Source: Terriglobales bacterium
GTDB lineage: Bacteria > Acidobacteriota > Terriglobia > Terriglobales > Acidobacteriaceae
Direction: 5' to 3'
Assembly (NCBI GenBank): GCA_035561515.1
Contig: DATMXP010000039.1
Span: 124,001 to 188,000 of the forward strand
DNA length: 64,000 bases
Part shown: positions 26,232 to 36,040 of the stretch, piece by piece
Layout of the letters: every line of letters begins with the position of its first letter
Numbering within the stretch: the stretch's first letter is position 1
Position numbers and translations under genes: made by a program
The notes under the pieces: generated by a model
Seen by the model: the letters and a program-made list of their open reading frames with translations, nothing else
What the model was told of the DNA's origin: nothing
Database searches by the model: none

Positions 26232-27935
26232 ATGACGAAACGCATCACGATTGACCCGATCAGCCGAATCGAAGGACACCTCCGCATCGATGTTGAGGTG
26301 GACAACGGGGCCGTCTCTAAAGCTTGGGCCTCGGCGACCATGTGGCGTGGCATTGAACGGATCCTGCAAGGCCGCGATCCGCGCGAAGCCTGGCTCTTTA
26401 CCCAACGCTTCTGCGGTGTTTGCACCACGGTTCACGCCATGGCGAGCGTGCGTTCCGTCGAAGACGCGCTCAACCTCGAAATCCCCCTCAATGCGCAGTA
26501 CATCCGCAATCTCATCCTGATTGCGCATGCGCTTCACGATCACATGGTGCACTTCTACCACCTGTCAGCGCTCGATTGGGTCGACGTGCTCACCATTCCC
26601 AAAGCCGATCCCGCCAAGACCTCGGCCCTGGCCGAGAGCCTTTCTCCCTGGACCCGCAACTCGAAGAACGAGTTCAAAGCCGCGAAGGACAAGGTTCTCG
26701 CCGTCGCAGCCAGCGGCCAACTCGGCATCTTCGCCAACGGCTACTGGGGACATCCCGCGATGCGCCTCAGCCCAGAAGTCAACCTGCTCGCCTTCTCGCA
26801 TTACCTCCAGGCCCTCGAGTATCAGCGCAAGGCGAACCAGGTCGTCGGTATGCTCGGCTCCAAGACGCCGCACATCCAGAACCTCACCGTCGGTGGCGTA
26901 GCCAATGCCATCAACCTCGACAGTCTGGCCACCTTGAACATGGACCGCCTCGGCGTGATCAAGAACCTGCTCGACGAAGTCGTCCAGTTCGTGCAGCAGG
27001 TTTATGTGCCGGACGCCACGGCCATCGCCGGCATGTATGCCGACTGGTTCAAGTACGGTGCCGGAGTTCAAAACTACCTCGCCGTGCCCGATCTTCCGCT
27101 CGACAGCAAGCGTCAGGCGTACGACCTCCCCGGTGGCTACATCAGCGGTGGCGACCTGTCGACCATCAAGGCCTTCAAGACGGCTGCTGACCCGATCTTC
27201 CGCGACGCCGTCACCGAAGACACCACCCACGCGTACTACGACAACAGCAAGAATTCGCTGCATCCGTGGAAGGGTGAAACCGAACCGCATTTCACCGATT
27301 GGCAAGCCGACAACAAGTACACCTGGGTCAAGGCACCGCGTTTCAACGGCAAGCCCGCCCAGGTTGGTCCGCTGGCGCAGATTCTCGTCGGATACGCACA
27401 GGGGCACGCGCTCACTCGCAAGTGGACCGATGCCGCTCTCGACCGCATCTCCTCCGTCGCCGGACGCAAAATCACCGTGAACGATCTGCAGTCCTCACTC
27501 GGACGCCACGTCGCGCGCTGCATCCGTACCGCGATGCTCTCCGAAGTGGCCGCCAAGCATTGGGAACTGCTGGTCAACAACATCGGCAAGGGTGACACCG
27601 CCATTCACATCCCGCCGCAATTCCCGAGCGGAACTGTCGAAGGCGTGGGCACGCACGAAGCTCCTCGCGGCACCTTGTCGCACTGGGTCGTGGTGAAAAA
27701 CGGCAAGATCGACAACTATCAGGCCGTGGTTCCTACCACCTGGAACGCCGCGCCGCGCGACGAGAACAACGTTCCCGGCCCGTACGAAGCTTCGCTGATG
27801 CACAACCCGATCGCGAATCCGGAAATGCCGCTCGAAGTCCTGCGGACCATCCACTCGTTCGACCCGTGCATGGCCTGCGCCGTTCACACCTTCGATCCTG
27901 AGGGCAACAACCTCTCGCAGGTGAAGGTGCTGTGA
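26232..27935 (+). CDS. hybC: [NiFe] hydrogenase large (catalytic) subunit
   Basis: The nickel-iron catalytic subunit, 567 residues. The L1 motif RFCGVCTTVH (about residues 59-68) gives two active-site cysteines, and DPCMACAVH near the C-terminus gives the other two. After that His comes a 15-residue tail (starting TFDPEGNNL) that the protease removes once nickel is inserted. It has no signal peptide of its own and is exported with the Tat-tagged small subunit. No hyp maturation genes are in this window. The gene overlaps the protease gene by four bases. Confidence 0.96.
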   Translation: MTKRITIDPISRIEGHLRIDVEVDNGAVSKAWASATMWRGIERILQGRDPREAWLFTQRFCGVCTTVHAMASVRSVEDALNLEIPLNAQYIRNLILIAHALHDHMVHFYHLSALDWVDVLTIPKADPAKTSALAESLSPWTRNSKNEFKAAKDKVLAVAASGQLGIFANGYWGHPAMRLSPEVNLLAFSHYLQALEYQRKANQVVGMLGSKTPHIQNLTVGGVANAINLDSLATLNMDRLGVIKNLLDEVVQFVQQVYVPDATAIAGMYADWFKYGAGVQNYLAVPDLPLDSKRQAYDLPGGYISGGDLSTIKAFKTAADPIFRDAVTEDTTHAYYDNSKNSLHPWKGETEPHFTDWQADNKYTWVKAPRFNGKPAQVGPLAQILVGYAQGHALTRKWTDAALDRISSVAGRKITVNDLQSSLGRHVARCIRTAMLSEVAAKHWELLVNNIGKGDTAIHIPPQFPSGTVEGVGTHEAPRGTLSHWVVVKNGKIDNYQAVVPTTWNAAPRDENNVPGPYEASLMHNPIANPEMPLEVLRTIHSFDPCMACAVHTFDPEGNNLSQVKVL

Positions 27936-28468
27936 ACCCAATCACCATCGCCGGCATCGGCAATATCCTGATGGGCGACGACTCCATCGGTCCCCACATC
28001 GCGCGCATCCTCGAAGCCGAGTACGACTTCGAGGGCGCTCGCGTCGCGGATCTCGGAACTCCCGTCCTCGATTTCCCCGATCACCTCGAGGGAAGCGAGA
28101 CCATCCTCATCATCGATGCCGTCGAAAATCGCAAGGTCCCTGGCACCATCACCGTCTACACGAAACAGGACATCGTCAAAAACGGCGTTCCCGTTCGTAC
28201 CGATCCGCATTCGCCCGCGCTCGCCGAAATGATGTTGCGAGCCGAGTTCACCGGTATCGGGCCCAAAGAAGCGGTGCTGGTCGGTGTTACGGCTAAGCAG
28301 TGCAACTTCTATCAGGGACTGAGCGACGAAGTCAGACAAGCCATACCTGCCGCGATGGAAGAAGTTCTCCGTCAGGCGGCAAAGCTGGGAGTCAGTTTTA
28401 GAAAGAAAGAGAATCCGTCTGCGCCCGCCATTTGGTGGGATACCCCCGCCGAAGTCGCAGCGGACTAG
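27932..28468 (+). CDS. hybD: hydrogenase maturation endopeptidase
   Basis: A 178-residue nickel-dependent protease of the HybD/HyaD/HoxW family that clips the C-terminal tail of the large subunit. The start GIGNILMGDDSIGPH contains the conserved Glu/Asp position (here MGDD), the central IIDAVE segment carries the next acidic ligand and TDPHSPALAEMM the His ligand. It ends the operon, overlapping the large subunit gene by four bases and followed by a strong terminator. Confidence 0.93.
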   Translation: MNPITIAGIGNILMGDDSIGPHIARILEAEYDFEGARVADLGTPVLDFPDHLEGSETILIIDAVENRKVPGTITVYTKQDIVKNGVPVRTDPHSPALAEMMLRAEFTGIGPKEAVLVGVTAKQCNFYQGLSDEVRQAIPAAMEEVLRQAAKLGVSFRKKENPSAPAIWWDTPAEVAAD

Positions 28469-28500
28469 CAAGACTTCCTCAACGTAAGGAAGGCAACAAG

Positions 28501-28524
28501 AGCCCACCCCAAGTGGGCTTTTTC
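28501..28524 (+). terminator. Rho-independent terminator of the hydrogenase operon
   Basis: AGCCCAC-CCCAA-GTGGGCT followed by TTTTTC, 33 bases after the protease stop. Confidence 0.9.
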
Positions 28525-28538
28525 AATTTCCAGCGAGT

Positions 28539-29333
28539 TTATGCGAGCGATCTGGTCGGACGAAACTCCGGATCCGCCAATCCGGAGCAGCCATTTTTGC
28601 GGTCCTTCACTAACCGTAATTTCCCCGGCGCTGGTTCGTCCCCGACGTCCACCGACTTGTTTGCATGCCAGAACGAATAAATCCAGATGATGAGCGCCAC
28701 GGTGTCAAAAACCGGAACGACCTGCATATACATCTTCTGTTGAGGTGCGCCGAACAGGAAAGCCGAAACCCTGGGCCAGAAGGTTTGAAAGGCAAATGCC
28801 GCGACGATGCCGACCGCGATCCCGGTGTCGCGTTCCTGCCAGGGAACGGAGTAGGAACGGGAGAACATGATCGTCACCGCCATAAATCCGAACACCGCCA
28901 TCCCGAGACCGCGTTGCATTCCGATAAGACCTTCCATGATTGGAAATGGGCCATTGGAGGTCAGGTGCAATGACGCCGCGACAAACACCGCCGAAATGCA
29001 GGTGGCCATTCGGATCAAAGTCAGTTTCATGCTGCGTGGCAACCATCTGGCACGGTCGGTGACGGAGTCAAACACCTCGTGAACCACACAGAACAGCAGC
29101 GCGAAAGTGAATAATTGGCCAAGCCAGTACGCATAGAAATAGAACCTGATGCTTAAGAAAACAGTTGCGAGTAGCAGGACAGATTCGCTGATGACCTTGA
29201 AGAGAATGAATGCGCTGAACGCTGGAAAATCACGCCGATGTTCCGGCCTCCTCAAAATTGTTGCGAGCGCCAGGAACAGCCCTATGTTCACGACAAGAGC
29301 CAGGTAGGTTTGGATGGGAATGAATGCCTTCAT
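28539..29333 (-). CDS. hypothetical integral membrane protein, 264 aa
   Basis: I do not recognise a named family. The product has about seven transmembrane helices, starting with YLALVVNIGLFLALATIL and then FPAFSAFILFKVISESVLLL, with short loops and a C-terminal soluble tail of about 35 residues. Such seven-helix hypothetical proteins are frequent in Acidobacteria, often in paralogous groups. It is downstream of a tiny exported peptide gene on the same strand (gap 58 bases) and may be co-transcribed with it. No catalytic motif is visible. Confidence 0.75.
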   Translation of the reverse strand: MKAFIPIQTYLALVVNIGLFLALATILRRPEHRRDFPAFSAFILFKVISESVLLLATVFLSIRFYFYAYWLGQLFTFALLFCVVHEVFDSVTDRARWLPRSMKLTLIRMATCISAVFVAASLHLTSNGPFPIMEGLIGMQRGLGMAVFGFMAVTIMFSRSYSVPWQERDTGIAVGIVAAFAFQTFWPRVSAFLFGAPQQKMYMQVVPVFDTVALIIWIYSFWHANKSVDVGDEPAPGKLRLVKDRKNGCSGLADPEFRPTRSLA

Positions 29334-29391
29334 GCAAGGGCCGCAAGAGCTCTCTTGCGACCCAATGTATCACGAGCTTGCACGAGCCCCG

Positions 29392-29526
29392 TTACTGAGG
29401 GCAGATCTCGGGTGGACAGATGGGCGGAGCGGCCGTCACCGGAACGTTTGAGGACCGGGTGGAACTCAGCATCACCGTTGCGGAAAGTACCAGGGTTGCG
29501 GCAATTACGAACAAGCGTTTTGTCAT
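29392..29526 (-). CDS. putative exported 44-aa Pro/Cys peptide
   Basis: A short frame beginning MTKRLFVIAATLVLSATVML, a good signal sequence, followed by a small mature part ending in ICPPEICPQ, with two cysteines in a repeated I-C-P pattern. AGGAG lies eight bases before the ATG. That ribosome site forms the 3' arm of a perfect 9-bp hairpin (29535-29557), so translation may be structurally controlled. Codon use and the signal peptide support a real gene, but its length makes it unproven. Confidence 0.6.
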   Translation of the reverse strand: MTKRLFVIAATLVLSATVMLSSTRSSNVPVTAAPPICPPEICPQ

Positions 29527-29534
29527 CTGACTGT

Positions 29535-29557
29535 CTCCTGCGCTGTTTGCGCAGGAG
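29535..29557 (-). promoter_or_regulatory. hairpin sequestering a ribosome binding site
   Basis: On the minus strand CTCCTGCGC-AAACA-GCGCAGGAG; the AGGAG Shine-Dalgarno of the 44-residue peptide gene is fully inside the second arm. Confidence 0.5.
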
Positions 29558-29906
29558 AAGAATCAGGCACCATATCGTGATCGGCAAGGTAACGAAGGTT
29601 TTCGGTCGCACCCCGCGGCTGAAAATATCGGGTTGCGATGCGACCGTAGAACATAGGTGCTCGAACCGGAGGCACAGGAAAAAACGGTCTCAATGCACTG
29701 TCCGCTTGAGTTCGAATGGCGTTGCTCGGTTGCTGATCGGCAACTCGGTCGCATGCGGGTCTGAACTCTTCAGTTACTCTCTTTTGATTTTGTCCAGACT
29801 GCTGGACTGAGATTTCGGGGCATTCTCCACTTCCGTAACTCCCCAGTTGCAGCTCGGGTGCCATTCCCAAAATTGCATCTTCAACATTCCATTGGAAATA
29901 GAGTTC

Positions 29907-29942
29907 TTGACGTATTACATATTGCAATACTAGTATTGCAAT
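29907..29942 (+). promoter_or_regulatory. promoter with a 22-bp perfect palindrome, XRE operon
   Basis: A TTGACG -35 box (29907-29912) is 18 bases before TAGTAT (29931-29936). A perfect 22-bp palindrome spans 29921-29942 and is itself made of two ATTGCAAT palindromes separated by six bases. It covers the -10 box, ten bases before the ATG of the XRE regulator, which suggests autorepression. Confidence 0.7.
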
Positions 29943-29951
29943 CCGTAATTT

Positions 29952-30449
29952 ATGAAGCTAGGCGAAAAACTACGGTACTTGCGGCTCATGGAAGGCACCC
30001 TACGCGGCCTCGAACGGGAGATGACCCAGAAGGAACTGGGCGAGGCCCTGAAGAAAGAGACCGGCCGTTCTCTCAGCCAGGGTTACCTCTCCCAGATCGA
30101 AAGCGGAGCCCGTCCGCATTTGACCAATGAGTCCCGCATGCTCCTTGCCAGGTTCTTCAAGGTGCATCCGGGCTACTTGGTCGACGACCCCGAGGGCTAC
30201 CACACCGAACTGGTTTCTCCTGTTCGAGTGCTGGAAGACACTTTGGACTTGTGGCTTATCAGCGGCGCCGAGCGCTTCCGTCGCGACCCGGAAATTTGCC
30301 ACGCCCTTCTGCAACTCGCGAAGCATGGCGATTCCCGCAAGTGCGTGGTCCTGATGGCCGCCATTTTGGAAACGCCAGAACTGGTGGACCGGCTGATGGA
30401 AGTGCTCAAGCCGGAGAAGGCCGCCGCAAAGGCAGGTGAAGCGATATGA
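29952..30449 (+). CDS. XRE-family HTH transcriptional regulator
   Basis: A 165-residue regulator. The N-terminal XRE helix-turn-helix (residues 5-65) includes MTQKELGEALKKETGRSLSQ and GYLSQIESGARPHLTNESRM, the typical recognition helix. The C-terminal half is all-alpha (LEDTLDLWLISGAERFRRD onward) and may bind a ligand or a partner; I do not recognise it. It is the first gene of an operon with NfeD, DUF4019, flotillin, a micropeptide and PspA. A palindrome over its own -10 box suggests self-repression, with the membrane genes as co-targets. Confidence 0.88.
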   Translation: MKLGEKLRYLRLMEGTLRGLEREMTQKELGEALKKETGRSLSQGYLSQIESGARPHLTNESRMLLARFFKVHPGYLVDDPEGYHTELVSPVRVLEDTLDLWLISGAERFRRDPEICHALLQLAKHGDSRKCVVLMAAILETPELVDRLMEVLKPEKAAAKAGEAI

Positions 30450-31078
30450 CGTGGGCTGATTTTTACCTGATCTGTTTCGTCGTTGGACTGTTGCTGAGCG
30501 TGTTGGCGTTTATCTTGGGCGACCTGCACCTGCACATCCACCTGCCGTTCCACATCCATTTGCCGAATTTCGATTTCGGTCACGTGGACTCCGGCCACGG
30601 AATAGGAGCTGGAGATGCTGGCGGTTTGCCTGCCATCAACTTCGGCACGCTGACCACATTCCTTGCATGGTTCGGGGGAATTGGATACCTGCTGGTGAGG
30701 CACTCGAACCTCTACGCCTTGTCCGCGCTCGGAGTGGCGTTCTTCGGAGGGCTGGTCGGAGCCGCGATCGTCTTCTTCGTAATCAGCCGTGTGTTCCTGC
30801 GCAACGAAGCGGACTACATCGCGGACGACGGCGACATGGTCGGAGTGCTGGGGCGAATCACCAGTTCCGTCTTCCAGGGCGGAACAGGGGAGCTCACTTA
30901 CGTCCAGGGTGGCACGCGCCACAGTTGCGCCGCGCGGACCGACGACGGCAGCGCCATCTCCAAGGGAACCGAGGTAGTGGTCACTAGATATGACCGTGGC
31001 GTCGCTTACGTGAAGCCGTGGGAAGAATTGGAAGAGGAATACGCCAACGGCTCGGGCGCGGACAGCAAGCAGTCTTGA
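30446..31078 (+). CDS. NfeD-like membrane protein with His-rich loop
   Basis: A 210-residue protein: one N-terminal helix, a His-rich segment (H28, H30, H32, H36, H38, H46, H51), two or three further helices (FGTLTTFLAWFGGIGYLLV, LSALGVAFFGGLVGAAIVFF), then a C-terminal OB-fold NfeD domain (GMVGVLGRITSSVFQGGTGE onward). NfeD proteins are encoded next to flotillins and act with them in membrane microdomains. The alternating H-x-H pattern is not usual for the family and could bind metal. It overlaps the XRE gene by four bases. Confidence 0.85.
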   Translation: MTWADFYLICFVVGLLLSVLAFILGDLHLHIHLPFHIHLPNFDFGHVDSGHGIGAGDAGGLPAINFGTLTTFLAWFGGIGYLLVRHSNLYALSALGVAFFGGLVGAAIVFFVISRVFLRNEADYIADDGDMVGVLGRITSSVFQGGTGELTYVQGGTRHSCAARTDDGSAISKGTEVVVTRYDRGVAYVKPWEELEEEYANGSGADSKQS

Positions 31079-31089
31079 GAGGAGAGACC

Positions 31090-31503
31090 ATGAAAAGGGC
31101 AGTAACAATCGTTTTGGTAGTGATCGCCTTAACCGCAGTGCTTGCAGCGCAAGACAAGCAAACCCAGGCCGCGCAGAAGTCAGCCGAGAGCTGGCTCGCG
31201 ATGGTCGACAGCGGCAGTTACGACGGCAGCTGGGACGAAGCGGCTTCGATCTTCAAGAACGCAATCACCAAGGAGCAATGGAAGAAGGCCGTCACCACCG
31301 CCCGCGGTCCTTTGGGCAAGCTGGTTTCACGCAAGCTGAAGTCGGCGCAGTTCACGACCGAGCTGCCTGGTGCTCCCGACGGCAAGTATGTGGTGATCCA
31401 GTACGAAACGTCGTTCGAGAACAAGAAGTCGGCCGTCGAGACCATCACTCCCATGCTCGACAAAGATGGGCAGTGGCGCGTTTCGGGGTATTTCATTCGC
31501 TGA
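31090..31503 (+). CDS. DUF4019-type exported protein
   Basis: A 137-residue protein with a signal peptide (MKRAVTIVLVVIALTAVLAA, cleaved near AAQ) and a DUF4019 domain: AAQKSAESWLAMVDSGSYDG with SWDEAASIFK, then KYVVIQYETSFENKKSAVET and a final WRVSGYFIR. The fold is cystatin-like/NTF2-like. GGAGAG precedes the ATG. Its position between NfeD and flotillin makes it a periplasmic member of the same membrane module. Function is unknown for the family. Confidence 0.85.
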   Translation: MKRAVTIVLVVIALTAVLAAQDKQTQAAQKSAESWLAMVDSGSYDGSWDEAASIFKNAITKEQWKKAVTTARGPLGKLVSRKLKSAQFTTELPGAPDGKYVVIQYETSFENKKSAVETITPMLDKDGQWRVSGYFIR

Positions 31504-31583
31504 AGTTTGGGGACGGCGCCACGGCACGCCCGTGGCGCTTTGCAGTGCAGTGACGGTCAATCACCGTCTTAACAAGGAGGCAT

Positions 31584-33050
31584 ATGAATTCCATACCTAT
31601 GGATGTCTGGATTATCAGTGGCCTGATCGTCCTGGCGTTCTTTCTTATCTTCGGTGTGTTTGCGCGCTTGTATCGGAAGGTGGGTCCGAATGAAGCTCTG
31701 ATCGTGTTCGGGTTCCGCAGGACGAGAATCCGCAAAGGCCACGGTACGCTGGTGATTCCCATGCTCGAAAACTGCCACGAGCTTTCGCTCGAATTGATGT
31801 CCTTCGACGTAGCGCCGCAGCAGGACCTTTACACCAAGCAGGGCGTCGCCGTAACGGTGGAAGCCGTGGCGCAGATCAAGGTCAAGTCCGATGACGAGTC
31901 GATCCTCACCGCTGCCGAGCAGTTCCTCACCAAAACGCCGCCGCAGCGCGAAGGCCTGATCCGCCTTGTGATGGAAGGCCACCTGCGTGGCATCATCGGC
32001 CAGCTCACGGTCGAAGAAATCGTGAAGCAGCCCGAAATGGTAAGCGATCGCATGCGTTCCACCTGCGCGGAAGACATGAGCAAGATGGGACTGGAAGTGA
32101 TCTCGTTCACCATCAAGGAAGTCCGCGACAAGAATGAGTACATCGCGAACATGGGACGCCCTGACGTTGCTCGCATCAAGCGCGACGCTGACGTGGCCGC
32201 CGCCGAAGCCGAGCGCGACACCGCCATCAAGCGGGCGCTCGCACAGCGCGAAGCCGCCGTCGCGAAGGCGCAGGCCGACCAGGAACGCGTTCAGGCTGAA
32301 ACCGCCTCCCAGGCTAAACAGGCGGAAGCCACGCGCGACCTCGAAGTCAAGAAAGCTCAGTACCTGGAGATCACCAAGCGTCAGCAGGCACAGGCCGACA
32401 AGGCTTACGAGATCCAGACCAACGTCATGCAGCAGCAGGTCGTTGCCGAGCAGGTGAAGGTCATACAGGTCGAGAAGCTCGAACAGGTGAAGGTGCAGGA
32501 CGCCGAAATCGCTCGCCGCGAAAAGGAACTCATCGCCACCGTGCTGAAGCAGGCGGAGATCGAGCGCCAGCGCATCGAGACGCTCGCCCAGGCCGAGAAA
32601 CAGCGCTTGCTCTTCGAAGCTGAGGGCCACGCCGCTTCCATCCAGAAACAGGGTGAAGCCGAAGCCAACATCATCTTTGCCAAGGGCGAGGCGGAAGCGA
32701 AGGCGATGAACGTGAAGGCCGAAGCGTACCAGGAGTACAACCAGGCCGCCGTCATCGACAAGCTGATTACCGGCTTGCCCGAGGTCGTGCGTGCTCTGTC
32801 GGCTCCGTTAAGCCAGGTGGATCGTATCACCGTGGTCTCCACCGGCAACGGCAACTCCGCGGGCGTGAACAAGATCACCGGCGACATCGCGCAGATGGCG
32901 GCCCAAGTCCCGGCACTGTTCGAGGCCCTGTCCGGCATGAACGTGCACGACTTGCTCTCGAAGGTCCGCACCATTGGTGACAAATCGCCCAAGCCGGCCC
33001 TCGATGCCGCGCAGAACGAAGAAGCAAAGGCTGCATCGAGCAGCCAGTAA
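31584..33050 (+). CDS. flotillin family protein (FloT/YqiK-like)
   Basis: A 488-residue membrane scaffold protein. The N-terminal helix (DVWIISGLIVLAFFLIFGVF) is followed by an SPFH/PHB domain (roughly 30-210, KVGPNEALIVFGFRRTRI to MGRPDVARIK) and a long Ala/Glu/Gln/Lys coiled coil (210-400) with repeated AEAxR and EKQ heptads. The C-terminal part (LITGLPEVVRALSAPLSQVD onward) is the flotillin oligomerisation region. AAGGAGG lies before the ATG. Flotillins organise membrane microdomains and buffer membrane stress, usually with NfeD, as here. Confidence 0.94.
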   Translation: MNSIPMDVWIISGLIVLAFFLIFGVFARLYRKVGPNEALIVFGFRRTRIRKGHGTLVIPMLENCHELSLELMSFDVAPQQDLYTKQGVAVTVEAVAQIKVKSDDESILTAAEQFLTKTPPQREGLIRLVMEGHLRGIIGQLTVEEIVKQPEMVSDRMRSTCAEDMSKMGLEVISFTIKEVRDKNEYIANMGRPDVARIKRDADVAAAEAERDTAIKRALAQREAAVAKAQADQERVQAETASQAKQAEATRDLEVKKAQYLEITKRQQAQADKAYEIQTNVMQQQVVAEQVKVIQVEKLEQVKVQDAEIARREKELIATVLKQAEIERQRIETLAQAEKQRLLFEAEGHAASIQKQGEAEANIIFAKGEAEAKAMNVKAEAYQEYNQAAVIDKLITGLPEVVRALSAPLSQVDRITVVSTGNGNSAGVNKITGDIAQMAAQVPALFEALSGMNVHDLLSKVRTIGDKSPKPALDAAQNEEAKAASSSQ

Positions 33051-33113
33051 CCATGGCTCCCATCCTCGTCGGCATTTCGGCGAGGATGGGAACTTCACCG
33101 AAAGAGGAGTGAG

Positions 33114-33278
33114 ATGAAGCGGAAGTTCACTGGGATCGGGTTGGGGCTTGCGGCCGGAGTGGGATTAGGTGCCGCTCTCGGCGTCGCAGCCGGCTCAGTC
33201 GCCGTCTGGTTGGCTGCTGGCATGGCCTTTGGGATCCTGTTCATGGCAGCCGCGCAAAGAGTTTCCAAGCAGCAGTAG
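33114..33278 (+). CDS. Gly-zipper micropeptide, 54 aa
   Basis: A short frame beginning MKRKFTGIGLGLAAGVGLGA, preceded by AAAGAGGAGTGAG. The product is almost entirely one or two Gly/Ala-rich hydrophobic helices with G-x3-G spacing, then a basic tail ending KQQ. Glycine-zipper helices pack against one another in membranes, so it may oligomerise or bind flotillin or PspA. It is 63 bases after the flotillin stop and 31 bases before pspA, all on one strand. No homologue is known to me. Confidence 0.75.
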   Translation: MKRKFTGIGLGLAAGVGLGAALGVAAGSVAVWLAAGMAFGILFMAAAQRVSKQQ

Positions 33279-33309
33279 CAAGATCGCAATCGTAGAAAGG
33301 AGTTGAGCG

Positions 33310-33978
33310 ATGGCTTTATTGGAACGTGTAACCACGCTGGTTCGTGCCAATTTAAACGACCTCGTTGATCGGGCCGAGAATCCCGAAAAGATGATCAAAC
33401 AGGTCATCCTTGATATGCAGAATCAGTTCATGCAGGTGAAGACGCAGGTGGCCATTGCCATCGCCGACCTTCACTTGCTCGAGAAGAAAAAGAAGGAGAA
33501 CCTCGACAAGGAATCCGAATGGATGCGCAAAGCGGATCTCGCCGTTGGCAAGAAAGACGACGCGCTCGCCCGGGCCGCCCTCGAACGTGCTCTCTCGTTC
33601 AAGCTGATGGCCACGAACTTCGACGAGCAAATCGCCGATCAGAAAGTTCAGGTCGACCTTCTTCGCGAAGCCCTCAGCAAGCTTGAGCAGAAGATCGCTG
33701 AAGCCGAATCGAAGTCCGAGTTGCTGATCGCGCAGCACCGTCGTTCGAAGGCCGTGGGCCGTGCTGCCGACGCCAGTTCCGCCGCCGATTCTCGCGACAA
33801 GACCGCCACCTTCGATCGCATGAAGAACAAGGTCATGCGCGAAGAGGCCATCAACCAGGCCAAGGCGGAAGTCGAGGGCAGCGGCGAAATCGAGCGCAAG
33901 TTCGCCCAGATGGAAAAGGACGAACAGATCGACAAGCTGCTCGCCGAAATCAAGGCGCGAAAAATGTTGTCTGCGTAA
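33310..33978 (+). CDS. pspA: PspA/IM30 family membrane-stress protein
   Basis: A 222-residue, almost wholly coiled-coil protein of the PspA/Vipp1 (ESCRT-III-like) family that coats and repairs the inner membrane. It starts MALLERVTTLVRANLNDLVD with the amphipathic first helix, then AENPEKMIKQVILDMQNQFM, a family hallmark. The later helices are continuous heptads to KIKARKML. AAAGGAGTTGAGCG precedes the ATG. It closes the XRE-NfeD-DUF4019-flotillin operon and is followed by a strong terminator. Confidence 0.93.
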   Translation: MALLERVTTLVRANLNDLVDRAENPEKMIKQVILDMQNQFMQVKTQVAIAIADLHLLEKKKKENLDKESEWMRKADLAVGKKDDALARAALERALSFKLMATNFDEQIADQKVQVDLLREALSKLEQKIAEAESKSELLIAQHRRSKAVGRAADASSAADSRDKTATFDRMKNKVMREEAINQAKAEVEGSGEIERKFAQMEKDEQIDKLLAEIKARKMLSA

Positions 33979-33990
33979 TCACGATGCGGG

Positions 33991-34026
33991 AAAAGAGGCT
34001 CTGTCTAGGGCCTCTTTTCTTTTTTT
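33991..34026 (+). terminator. Rho-independent terminator of the flotillin-PspA operon
   Basis: AAAAGAGGC / GCCTCTTTT with a ten-base loop, then CTTTTTTTTCG, 13 bases after the pspA stop. Confidence 0.9.
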
Positions 34027-34043
34027 CGCATCCATCTTGTAGC

Positions 34044-34727
34044 ATGTTGCTCAAGATGGCGGAACCAAACGCAAGCATTAACTCCTTCTTCATCGAAGGG
34101 CCCGCTGGCCGGCTTGAAGCTCTCCTCAACGCCGGCTCGCCCGATGCGAAATATGCCGCGCTGGTGTGCCATCCCCACCCGCTCTATGGCGGCACCATGC
34201 ACAACAAGGTTGTGTATCACGCGGCCAAGGCGCTTAATTCCTTCGGATTCCCGGTACTCCGCTTCAACTTTCGCGGTGCCGGTCTCAGCGAGGGCGAACA
34301 CGCCCACGGCCGCGGCGAAATTGACGACGTTCGCGCCGCCCTTCACTGGCTCACATCCAAGTTCAATCGGCCCATCGTCTTCGCCGGATTTTCCTTCGGT
34401 GCCTCTACGGGTATGCGCGCCTGCTGTCCCGATCCCGACGTGAAGTTCCTCATCTCACTGGGAACACCCGTCGCTGCCGAAGGCCGCGTTTATGCTTACA
34501 AGTTCCTCGCGGACTGCCCCAAGCCCAAGCTATTCGTCAGCGGCGACTCCGACCCTTACGGCCCCGTCTCCGAGCTTCAACGAGTCGAGCACAACGCCGC
34601 GCCGCCGAAGAAACTCGTGATCGTTCCCAACGCAGGGCACTTCTTCGAAGGGCAGCTTCCTGTCATGCGTCACACCATCGAGCAATGGATTCGCGAAAAC
34701 GTTCTGCCGGAGTTAAAAACCGCATGA
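34044..34727 (+). CDS. alpha/beta hydrolase (COG2945-like)
   Basis: A 227-residue alpha/beta hydrolase. The first strands hold CHPHPLYGGTMHNKVV, characteristic of the COG2945 group, followed by FNFRGAGLSEG (oxyanion region), the nucleophile elbow GFSFGAST and the catalytic His in NAGHFFEG near the end. The acidic residue is likely the Asp in SGDSDPYGP. ATG codons at 34044 and 34056 are both possible and neither has a clear ribosome site. It overlaps the glycerate kinase gene by four bases (ATGA). Substrate unknown. Confidence 0.88.
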   Translation: MLLKMAEPNASINSFFIEGPAGRLEALLNAGSPDAKYAALVCHPHPLYGGTMHNKVVYHAAKALNSFGFPVLRFNFRGAGLSEGEHAHGRGEIDDVRAALHWLTSKFNRPIVFAGFSFGASTGMRACCPDPDVKFLISLGTPVAAEGRVYAYKFLADCPKPKLFVSGDSDPYGPVSELQRVEHNAAPPKKLVIVPNAGHFFEGQLPVMRHTIEQWIRENVLPELKTA

Positions 34728-36040
34728 GCGTGGACGAAAAAGTCGCAACCCAAATGCGCGACGTCGCCCGTCAGATCTTCACCGACACGCTCAACGAGAT
34801 CAGCGTCGACGCCGCTTTCGAACATCACGTCGCCTACGACCGCGGTATCCTTCGTATCGGCGACGATCTCTACAACCTCGATTCCTTTACCCGCCTGCTG
34901 GCCATCTCCATCGGCAAGGCCGCGCACACCATGGCGGAAGCGCTGGTGAAGCAACTCGGCTCCCGCGTCGCAGGATTCATTGCCAGTTCCGTGAATCCTC
35001 CTGAGCACCTCGCTCAGTTCGTTTACTTTCGCGGCGGCCACCCGGTTCCGAACGAAGATTCCGTTCGCGCCGCGACCGCCATTCAGAGCGTGCTCGAAAC
35101 GCTCGACCAATCGTCTCTCGTCATCTACCTGCTCAGCGGAGGCGGTTCCGCCATCGTCGAAAAGCCGCTATTTACGCAGATCTCCCTGGCCGACCTCGCC
35201 GCCACCTACAGTGCGCTGGTGAACTGCGGCGCTCCCATCAGCGAGATCAACGCCATTCGCAAGCATCTCTCCGCGGTCAAGGGAGGACGTCTTGCTCTCG
35301 CCGCCGGAGCCGCACAGCAAGTCTCGATCATGATCTCCGACGTCCCCGACGACCAGTTGGATTCGCTCGCCTCGGGCCCCACCATGCCCGACCGAAGCAC
35401 CGTCACCCAGTGTTACCAGATCGTCGAGAAGTACCGATTGCTCCCGCAACTTCCGCCCGCGGTCAGGGTGGTGTTCGAGCAAAAGCTCCTGCAGGAAACT
35501 CCCAAGTCCACCGATGCCGCCTTCGTTCGTTCCCGCTGGTGGCCGATACTCTCCAGCAACATCGCCGCGAAAAGCGCAGCCGCGTTCGCCGCAACACAAG
35601 GCTTTGCCGTGGAAATAGACAACACCTGCGACGACTGGGATTACCAGAAAGCCGCCGACTATCTGCTCGCGAAAGTGCGCAAGCTCCGTGCAGGCGCCTC
35701 AAAGGTGTGTGTTGTCTCTGCCGGAGAAGTCACCGTCAAGGTCACGGACACATCAGGCAAGGGCGGACGCAACCAGCAGTTTGCGCTTTACTGCGCCGAG
35801 AAGATCGCTGGCGAAAACATGACCGTGCTCAGCGCCGGCACCGACGGTATCGACGGAAACAGCGACGCAGCAGGGGCAGTCGTCGATGGCACCACCACGT
35901 CGCGCGCATCAGCCGACAAGCTTTCATCGGCGGTCCGCACGTTTAACGCAACCCCCTTGCTCACGGAATTAGGCGATGCCATCGTCACTGGCCCCACCGG
36001 AAACAACGTCCGCGACATTCGCATCCTGCTCGCTTATTAA
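34724..36040 (+). CDS. glycerate 2-kinase (MOFRL family)
   Basis: A 438-residue type II glycerate kinase, which makes 2-phosphoglycerate from D-glycerate. The N-terminal DUF4147 domain has the ISIGKAAHTMAEAL lysine region, FRGGHPVPNEDS, the phosphate-binding LLSGGGSAI and the INAIRKHLSAVKGGRLA segment. The C-terminal MOFRL domain (about 310-435) includes VVSAGEVTVKV, GKGGRNQQFAL and SAGTDGIDGNSDAAGAVVD. I prefer the ATG at 34724, which overlaps the upstream hydrolase stop, over an earlier in-frame codon at 34685. Single copy with no glyoxylate genes adjacent. Confidence 0.93.
   Translation: MSVDEKVATQMRDVARQIFTDTLNEISVDAAFEHHVAYDRGILRIGDDLYNLDSFTRLLAISIGKAAHTMAEALVKQLGSRVAGFIASSVNPPEHLAQFVYFRGGHPVPNEDSVRAATAIQSVLETLDQSSLVIYLLSGGGSAIVEKPLFTQISLADLAATYSALVNCGAPISEINAIRKHLSAVKGGRLALAAGAAQQVSIMISDVPDDQLDSLASGPTMPDRSTVTQCYQIVEKYRLLPQLPPAVRVVFEQKLLQETPKSTDAAFVRSRWWPILSSNIAAKSAAAFAATQGFAVEIDNTCDDWDYQKAADYLLAKVRKLRAGASKVCVVSAGEVTVKVTDTSGKGGRNQQFALYCAEKIAGENMTVLSAGTDGIDGNSDAAGAVVDGTTTSRASADKLSSAVRTFNATPLLTELGDAIVTGPTGNNVRDIRILLAY

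Follow-up and report, generated by a model that had tools for sequence, protein, structure and literature searches.

We analysed a window of 64,000 nucleotides of contig DATMXP010000039.1 from a Terriglobales bacterium (GenBank assembly GCA_035561515.1); coordinates given without a locus refer to this whole stretch. Between positions 29952 and 33978 it carries six open reading frames (ORFs), all on the forward strand, which encode an XRE-type regulator, an NfeD-like protein, a DUF4019 protein, a flotillin, a small Gly-zipper peptide and a PspA/IM30 family protein. Comparison with related loci revealed that the set consists of four constant genes in a fixed order, XRE-NfeD-flotillin-PspA, and of optional cargo (DUF4019, Gly-zipper peptide and DUF1648/SdpI-type proteins). 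The XRE gene is preceded by a double operator that overlaps its promoter, and among related genomes the regulator, this flotillin and a close PspA occur together or not at all. The most probable interpretation, in our view, is that they form an autorepressed, self-contained envelope-stress cassette; the role in envelope stress is suggested by the protein families involved.

Four constant genes and their optional cargo

Gene order was compared in 101 loci (99 distinct), comprising the window, 20 neighbourhoods from 61 related genomes and the 80 best of 326 XRE relatives, the latter found by scanning contigs with the XRE alignment. All of these 80 carried titles of Acidobacteriota. The module is present, among others, in the records of the isolates Silvibacterium bohemicum S15 (L110) and strain KBS 83 (L120). 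Profiles of all four core proteins were matched in 87 loci, invariably in the order XRE-NfeD-flotillin-PspA, while the remaining 14 of the 101 loci hit contig ends, as judged from the extents of locus and contig. In 78 loci there were four single, intact matches.

The initial annotation had treated the six genes of the window as one unit. As a conserved whole this unit must be rejected, since DUF4019 and the Gly-zipper peptide are accessory, and the survey of Acidobacteriota that it had proposed upheld the order of the four core genes only. DUF4019 was present in 3 of the 99 distinct loci and in three different slots: the window has it between NfeD and flotillin, L041 after PspA and L106 between XRE and NfeD. 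In L106 (7513-9422) the DUF4019 gene lies within the cassette beside strongly shortened NfeD and flotillin matches. Gly-zipper peptides were found in at least 16 of the 87 loci (15 of the 85 complete distinct ones); this is a lower bound, because the profile was trained on ten loci and because L072 and L100 have other small hydrophobic ORFs in the slot, as judged by eye. DUF1648-type proteins were matched by the SDP profile in eight loci. They lie between NfeD and flotillin in L026, L034, L040, L069 and L112 and between flotillin and PspA in L101; in L035 and L036 no full-length ORF of this type was seen. In L027 a membrane protein with both a DUF1648 and an SdpI domain, each above its cut-off and therefore of the SdpI type, is encoded between flotillin and PspA. 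The function of SdpI is to confer immunity to a peptide that acts on membranes. Two loci, finally, possess a gene for a small membrane protein of no clear family between the operator and the XRE gene (L028:7481-8047 and L042:2474-2998).

The six co-directional ORFs described in the initial annotation were confirmed by ORF calls, and their families by Pfam (HTH_3, DUF4019, Band_7 plus Flot, and PspA_IM30) or, for NfeD, by a structural model. The XRE and NfeD genes overlap by 4 bp and the following gaps measure 11, 80, 63 and 31 bp. The regulator (29952-30449, 165 aa) has an N-terminal helix-turn-helix (HTH) and a conserved helical C-terminal domain, as seen from Pfam, alignment and model. The NfeD-like protein (30446-31078, 210 aa) remained under the Pfam cut-off (15.4 of 29.1 bits), and 8 of 19 NfeD-like members matched Pfam NfeD at E<=0.1. 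Its AlphaFold2 model (mean predicted local distance difference test score, pLDDT, 78.8) matched NfeD/YuaF (2k14, E 1.3e-6), PH1510-C and QmcA-YbbJ. With three predicted long helices, likely transmembrane, and a C-terminal OB fold, the modelled protein is assigned to the NfeD family on account of its fold and not of its Pfam score. A His-rich stretch separates its first long helix from the second; in 76 loci the 50 residues before the second helix contain a median of 8 His (range 4-13), as against 0.7 per 50 aa in the remainder of the protein, and a role in metal or pH sensing is possible.

The flotillin (31584-33050, 488 aa) has the SPFH (Band_7) domain together with the C-terminal Flot domain. 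Its nearest solved relatives are flotillin-1 and flotillin-2, with a flotillin-1 match of E 3.9e-84 by sequence, and it scored 332.6 of the 700 bits required for the NCBIfam FloT equivalog. PspA (33310-33978, 222 aa) contains a full-length PspA_IM30 domain (124 bits, cut-off 33.9), which places it in the PspA/IM30 family, and is the sole PspA_IM30 match found in the source genome. PspB, PspC and PspF were absent among the six genes and the three flanking ones, to which the search was limited, so that a classical enterobacterial Psp system was not recognised there.

The two accessory products of the window are the DUF4019 protein (31090-31503, 137 aa), whose start resembles a signal peptide by eye, and the 54-aa Gly-zipper membrane peptide (33114-33278). 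The latter matched no family in Pfam, NCBIfam or PHROGs, and similar peptides occupy the same slot at other loci. The literature on DUF4019 amounted to one paper, on the severity of Salmonella cases. An RNA hairpin without T-run is predicted in the gap between flotillin and peptide (33058-33091, forward strand; -31.3 kcal/mol for 33051-33113, z -4.69), possibly a processing or stabilising element. A role in anti-phage defence was considered and rejected, as none of the six proteins gave a PADLOC match at E<=0.001. Upstream on the same strand (26232-28468) lie ORFs that by eye resemble the large subunit of a NiFe-hydrogenase and its maturation protease.

A double operator interleaved with the promoter

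The initial annotation had noted a palindrome at the XRE gene. This 22-bp palindrome, ATTGCAATACTAGTATTGCAAT, is indeed present at 29921-29942 (chance expectation 0.00), and its arms have no other copy in the source genome at up to 2 mismatches. It is, however, only the inner part of a 36-bp element (29914-29949) composed of two 15-bp dyads of the consensus ATNNC-N5-GNNAT with centres 21 bp apart. The first dyad, O1 (ATTAC-N5-GCAAT), occupies 29914-29928 and the second, O2 (ATTGC-N5-GTAAT), occupies 29935-29949, ending 2 bp before the XRE start codon. In 98 distinct operator sequences the near-invariant bases were A1, T2, C5, G11, A14 and T15 (and A16) for one dyad and A22, T23, C26, G32, A35 and T36 for the other, and both dyads matched the consensus exactly in 90 of them. 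The operator ranked first in all 101 loci, by a consensus scan in the first 21 and by a matrix built from these in the 80 further ones, two of which duplicate training loci. Matrix scores in the 80 loci ranged from 32.0 to 55.1, whereas other positions of these loci scored no more than 12.7 and Markov-shuffled controls no more than 10.3.

Which part of this element is the binding unit? Two distant relatives, L147 and L148, each have two exact dyads, but at a centre spacing of 17 bp (a gap of 2 bp instead of 6 bp). As they keep the dyads and change the gap, the 15-bp dyad is likely the unit. The half-sites bound by one XRE dimer are spaced by about one helical turn, a distance found in each 15-bp dyad but not in the inner palindrome. 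The inner palindrome as a single binding site was therefore rejected, given that the near-invariant bases sit at ATNNC...GNNAT in both dyads and that the gap differs in the two distant loci. In L028 and L042, where XRE is preceded by an extra gene, 537-540 bp separate the operator end from XRE and the operator stands directly before the extra gene, if that of L028 is assumed to start at the ATG after the operator and not at an upstream TTG.

The operator is interleaved with a putative promoter. The -35 box TTGACG (29907-29912) directly precedes it, and a TTGACA-like box adjoins the operator in most related loci; O1 lies between this and the -10 box TAGTAT (29931-29936, spacer 18 bp), which runs from the inter-dyad gap into the beginning of O2. 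The promoter of the window has 9 of 12 consensus matches. It is the one sigma-70-like site in 28400-34800, where shuffled sequences give 1.8, and the number of terminator-like stems likewise did not exceed that in shuffles (8 vs 7.0). The argument consequently rests on position rather than number. A -35/-10 pair agreeing with the consensus at 9 or more of 12 positions was found at a fixed place relative to the operator in 84 of 98 sequences, as opposed to 0.4% of 505 control positions. In the 89 loci whose -35 box matched at 4 or more of 6 positions the mean match was 10.06 of 12 with a spacing of 16-18 bp. In 57 of these 89 loci the first base of the best -10 box is operator position 15, between the dyads (position 18 in the window), and the near-consensus sequence of this box partly reflects the operator itself. 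Since the operator both interlocks with and overlies a promoter that is near consensus in most loci, repression would be the likeliest effect of binding.

The distance from the operator end to the XRE start codon had a median of 0 bp and was 12 bp or less in 87 of the 99 distinct loci. As the operator ends directly before the ATG, XRE mostly lacks a Shine-Dalgarno-like motif: one was found in 3 of 99 cases before XRE as opposed to 76 of 84 before PspA (one locus skipped), and by inspection the flotillin gene of the window has one as well. From the position of the -10 box we estimate that the XRE mRNA leader would be about 10 nt long.

The sequence profile of the regulator matched EspR at E 4.3e-7. 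Residues 1-84 of the model (mean pLDDT 79.8) matched CI/Cro-type HTH folds with Z values of up to 10.0, EspR being closest; a Foldseek search with the model gave no match at E 0.001 (best 5.8e-3). The model also has a separate helical C-terminal domain of about 75 aa, with residues conserved in the alignment; this domain is the likeliest receiver of a signal. Judged by its sequence, the locus has the features of a tandem-operator XRE repressor, a CI/Cro-type HTH and two palindromic sites that overlap the core promoter of the regulator.

Co-inheritance and alternative readings

The distribution of the genes was determined in 61 related genomes and in 396 genomes of the phylum; members of these samples are related, so the counts do not represent independent events. 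XRE was found by protein search in 21 of the 61 genomes and flotillin (E<=1e-30) in exactly the same 21. PspA (E<=1e-5) occurred in these 21 and, as distant matches, in two more, with no close PspA in the 40 genomes that lack XRE. In the phylum sample 27 genomes had XRE, 119 had PspA_IM30 and 83 had flotillin at E<=1e-60. Lists compared by eye placed XRE beside PspA, no more than about 4 kb away on one contig, in 25 of the 27 genomes, and next to a flotillin sharing 68% or more identity with that of the window in 26 of the 27. The flotillins of the other 57 genomes were at most 46% identical to that of the window, and these genomes had no XRE. From the 92 genomes with PspA and without XRE we chose 18 PspA neighbourhoods, at least three of which end at contig ends, and found no NfeD, flotillin or XRE profile in them. 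In one genome (G169, contig C200, 16124-18307) three PspA_IM30 matches lie in tandem.

Pairwise distances of the four core proteins were correlated in 78 loci (r 0.42-0.76; permutation maxima 0.15-0.23). This fits joint descent as a cassette, whether by vertical inheritance with loss or by transfer. The initial annotation had read the locus as a self-contained module in which a palindrome-controlled XRE gene of its own accompanies NfeD, flotillin and PspA, and this part of it is supported: the order is constant in 87 of 87 loci, the operator is found in 101 of 101 and co-occurrence holds for the 21 of 61 genomes.

A regulon extending beyond the cassette was not upheld. The exact operator pattern occurred in the 61 genomes at 9 XRE operons and at two stray sites (G020:C43 and G041:C76), while the pattern read backwards gave none; by a hand estimate about 0.04 chance occurrences per genome are expected. 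This search of the 61 genomes for exact patterns revealed no convincing second operator site, and no genome-wide search for single dyads was made.

Several observations weigh against a self-contained cassette of four genes or restrict its scope. One of the stray sites, G020:C43, is in an XRE genome, and since the exact pattern recovers no more than 9 of the 21 operators already known, it could overlook weaker sites in other places. L147 (genome G339) consists of XRE, NfeD and flotillin with PspA elsewhere, and L148 (genome G283) has an XRE gene with a double-dyad operator and no adjacent PspA, so that the XRE circuit does not strictly include PspA. The genes after XRE in L148 (L148:3215-6536) look NfeD-like and band-7-like by eye; hhalign gave them a probability of 0.4%, the best BLASTP match had an E value of 2e-4 and was confined to short pieces, and neither Pfam nor NCBIfam yielded a match. 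L106 was counted among the loci with all four profiles, but its matches to NfeD (about 230 bp) and flotillin (about 400 bp) are short, apparently as a result of deletion, and in several other loci flotillin or pspA is split over two frames. For the C-terminal domain of XRE no relative was identified; the fold comparison by Z covered residues 1-84 only. At the 3' end, a 15-bp stem with T-run resembling an intrinsic terminator follows pspA in the window (33988-34021, forward strand), but in a crude scan 3 of 83 loci had a terminator downstream of pspA, compared with 2 of 255 control stretches (internal gaps: 0/17, 2/63 and 3/80). A general terminator after pspA was therefore rejected, and for most loci the 3' end of the transcript is a putative one.

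L147 also suggests a different functional unit, an XRE-controlled flotillin/NfeD pair to which PspA and the other genes are secondary passengers. XRE stands beside its flotillin type slightly more often than beside PspA (26 as opposed to 25 of 27 genomes), and the distances of NfeD and flotillin are more closely correlated (r 0.76) than those of either with PspA (0.48 and 0.50). On the other hand, PspA is the last of the four genes in each of the 87 main-clade loci in which all were seen, and among the 40 related genomes without XRE a close PspA occurs in none and a distant one in two. We consider PspA as a passenger rather unlikely, though a reading to be reckoned with.

It is a good deal less likely that XRE is an activator, or mainly an architectural protein, and not a repressor. 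EspR, its top fold match, is termed a nucleoid-associated protein in one PDB entry, and O1 is situated in the promoter spacer, where MerR-type activators act. An activator would, however, serve a promoter that is already near consensus and normally spaced, and both the start region and the edge of the -10 box lie under O2, although the -10 match is perhaps partly forced by the operator sequence. That the genes are coincidental neighbours, transcribed separately and unrelated to the operator, is very improbable, for while the 80-bp and 63-bp gaps and the hairpin could hold internal control, the fixed order, the all-or-none inheritance and the position of the operator in L028 and L042 argue against it. 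The same fixed order, with the shared operator and co-inheritance, contradicts a scattering in relatives without shared regulation, which the initial annotation had named as grounds for refutation.

Proposed regulation and relation to known systems

In the autorepressed cassette that we favour, XRE would bind as two dimers, one per 15-bp dyad and two helical turns apart. O1 would then fill the spacer between -35 and -10 and O2 would cover the -10 edge and the start region, so that bound XRE would block RNA polymerase and silence the operon, xre included. Since the leader of about ten nucleotides would be operator sequence without a Shine-Dalgarno motif, which pspA does possess, little repressor would be made. 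A signal that weakens XRE binding would allow NfeD and flotillin to form a membrane scaffold, and PspA may then coat or repair the membrane. The optional genes (DUF4019, Gly-zipper peptide, DUF1648/SdpI-type) would be local add-ons. By analogy, the acidobacterial proteins may act like their Bacillus subtilis counterparts (PMC8581546).

How PspA is switched outside the proteobacteria and a few model Gram-positives is largely an open question. For a wide range of Acidobacteriota a likely regulator, an exact operator and an apparently single target operon can now be named, so that a single reporter construct could reveal which stress is the inducer. A further prediction from the constant pairing is that the scaffolds of flotillin and NfeD function together with the PspA coat as a single machine. 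Going further, we tentatively suggest, as something quite possible, an additional regulatory logic for Psp: an all-or-none cassette with a double-dyad XRE autorepressor (so far in Acidobacteriota), a start without Shine-Dalgarno motif fused to the operator, flotillin/NfeD rafts and PspA coat as one stress-inducible machine, interchangeable accessory genes of an immunity-like kind (SdpI type, Gly-zipper peptide, DUF4019), and the C-terminal domain of XRE or the His-rich stretch of NfeD as a metal, pH or membrane sensor.

With respect to regulation the closest parallels considered are C.Esp1396I-type controllers and the CI/Cro repressors. Both occupy, as two dimers, a double operator which is about as long as that of the window and overlaps the promoter of their own gene. 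Like XRE they are small proteins of the XRE fold, according to PDB titles. They differ in that they serve restriction-modification or phage genes, whereas the XRE of the window has an extra helical domain of about 75 aa and heads a membrane operon.

The core combination of genes has already been published. Popp et al. 2022 (PMC9239133) describe, in the text available, acidobacterial pspA genes near band 7/FloT, NfeD and HTH regulators, with band 7_Flot in 11 of 19 PspA neighbourhoods, and report operons of PspA, Band7/FloT, NfeD and HTH in Acidobacteriota; the window belongs to this operon type, its NfeD by fold. Ravi et al. 2024 (PMC11237479), likewise according to the available text, link PspA to flotillin and YqiJ/YuaF in CesT/Tir-PspA operons with TM-band-7-flotillin. 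The claim of the initial annotation that the set had not been described is thus partly anticipated. Right in outline, it was partly confirmed, with its composition corrected and its palindrome replaced by a precise double operator, and its interpretation is partly supported overall. The available text of Popp et al. (PMC9239133) mentions neither an operator nor a fixed order, and no XRE clade, Gly-zipper peptide, SdpI-type cargo or DUF4019 either. In the literature covered, which excludes the figures and data sets of that paper, only Popp et al. and Ravi et al. come close, and we found no earlier account of the operator, of the XRE clade, or of DUF4019, peptide or SdpI-type genes in such operons. 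The gene grouping is therefore known, while for the likely XRE on-off switch with its double operator, as read from the sequences, no earlier report was found.

Other systems share single traits with the cassette. The CesT/Tir-PspA operons differ in their genes for a CesT/Tir chaperone and AAA+ proteins, and neither 'XRE' nor 'NfeD' appears in the available text (PMC11237479). The pspA-ydjGHI operon of Bacillus subtilis is under sigma-W control, its SPFH partner YdjI is described as likely soluble and needs YdjG/YdjH, and the text available does not contain 'XRE' (PMC8581546). The mycobacterial clgR-pspA operon, compared by its description, is alike in that a Cro-like HTH regulator is co-encoded with PspA; its partners are PspM and PspN, flotillin and NfeD not being named in the available text (PMC11237479). 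As to floA-nfeD operons, PspA and an XRE gene are not mentioned in the text available, but the NfeD gene is followed directly by the flotillin gene, as it is in the core of the cassette, and both proteins interact (PMC11222466).

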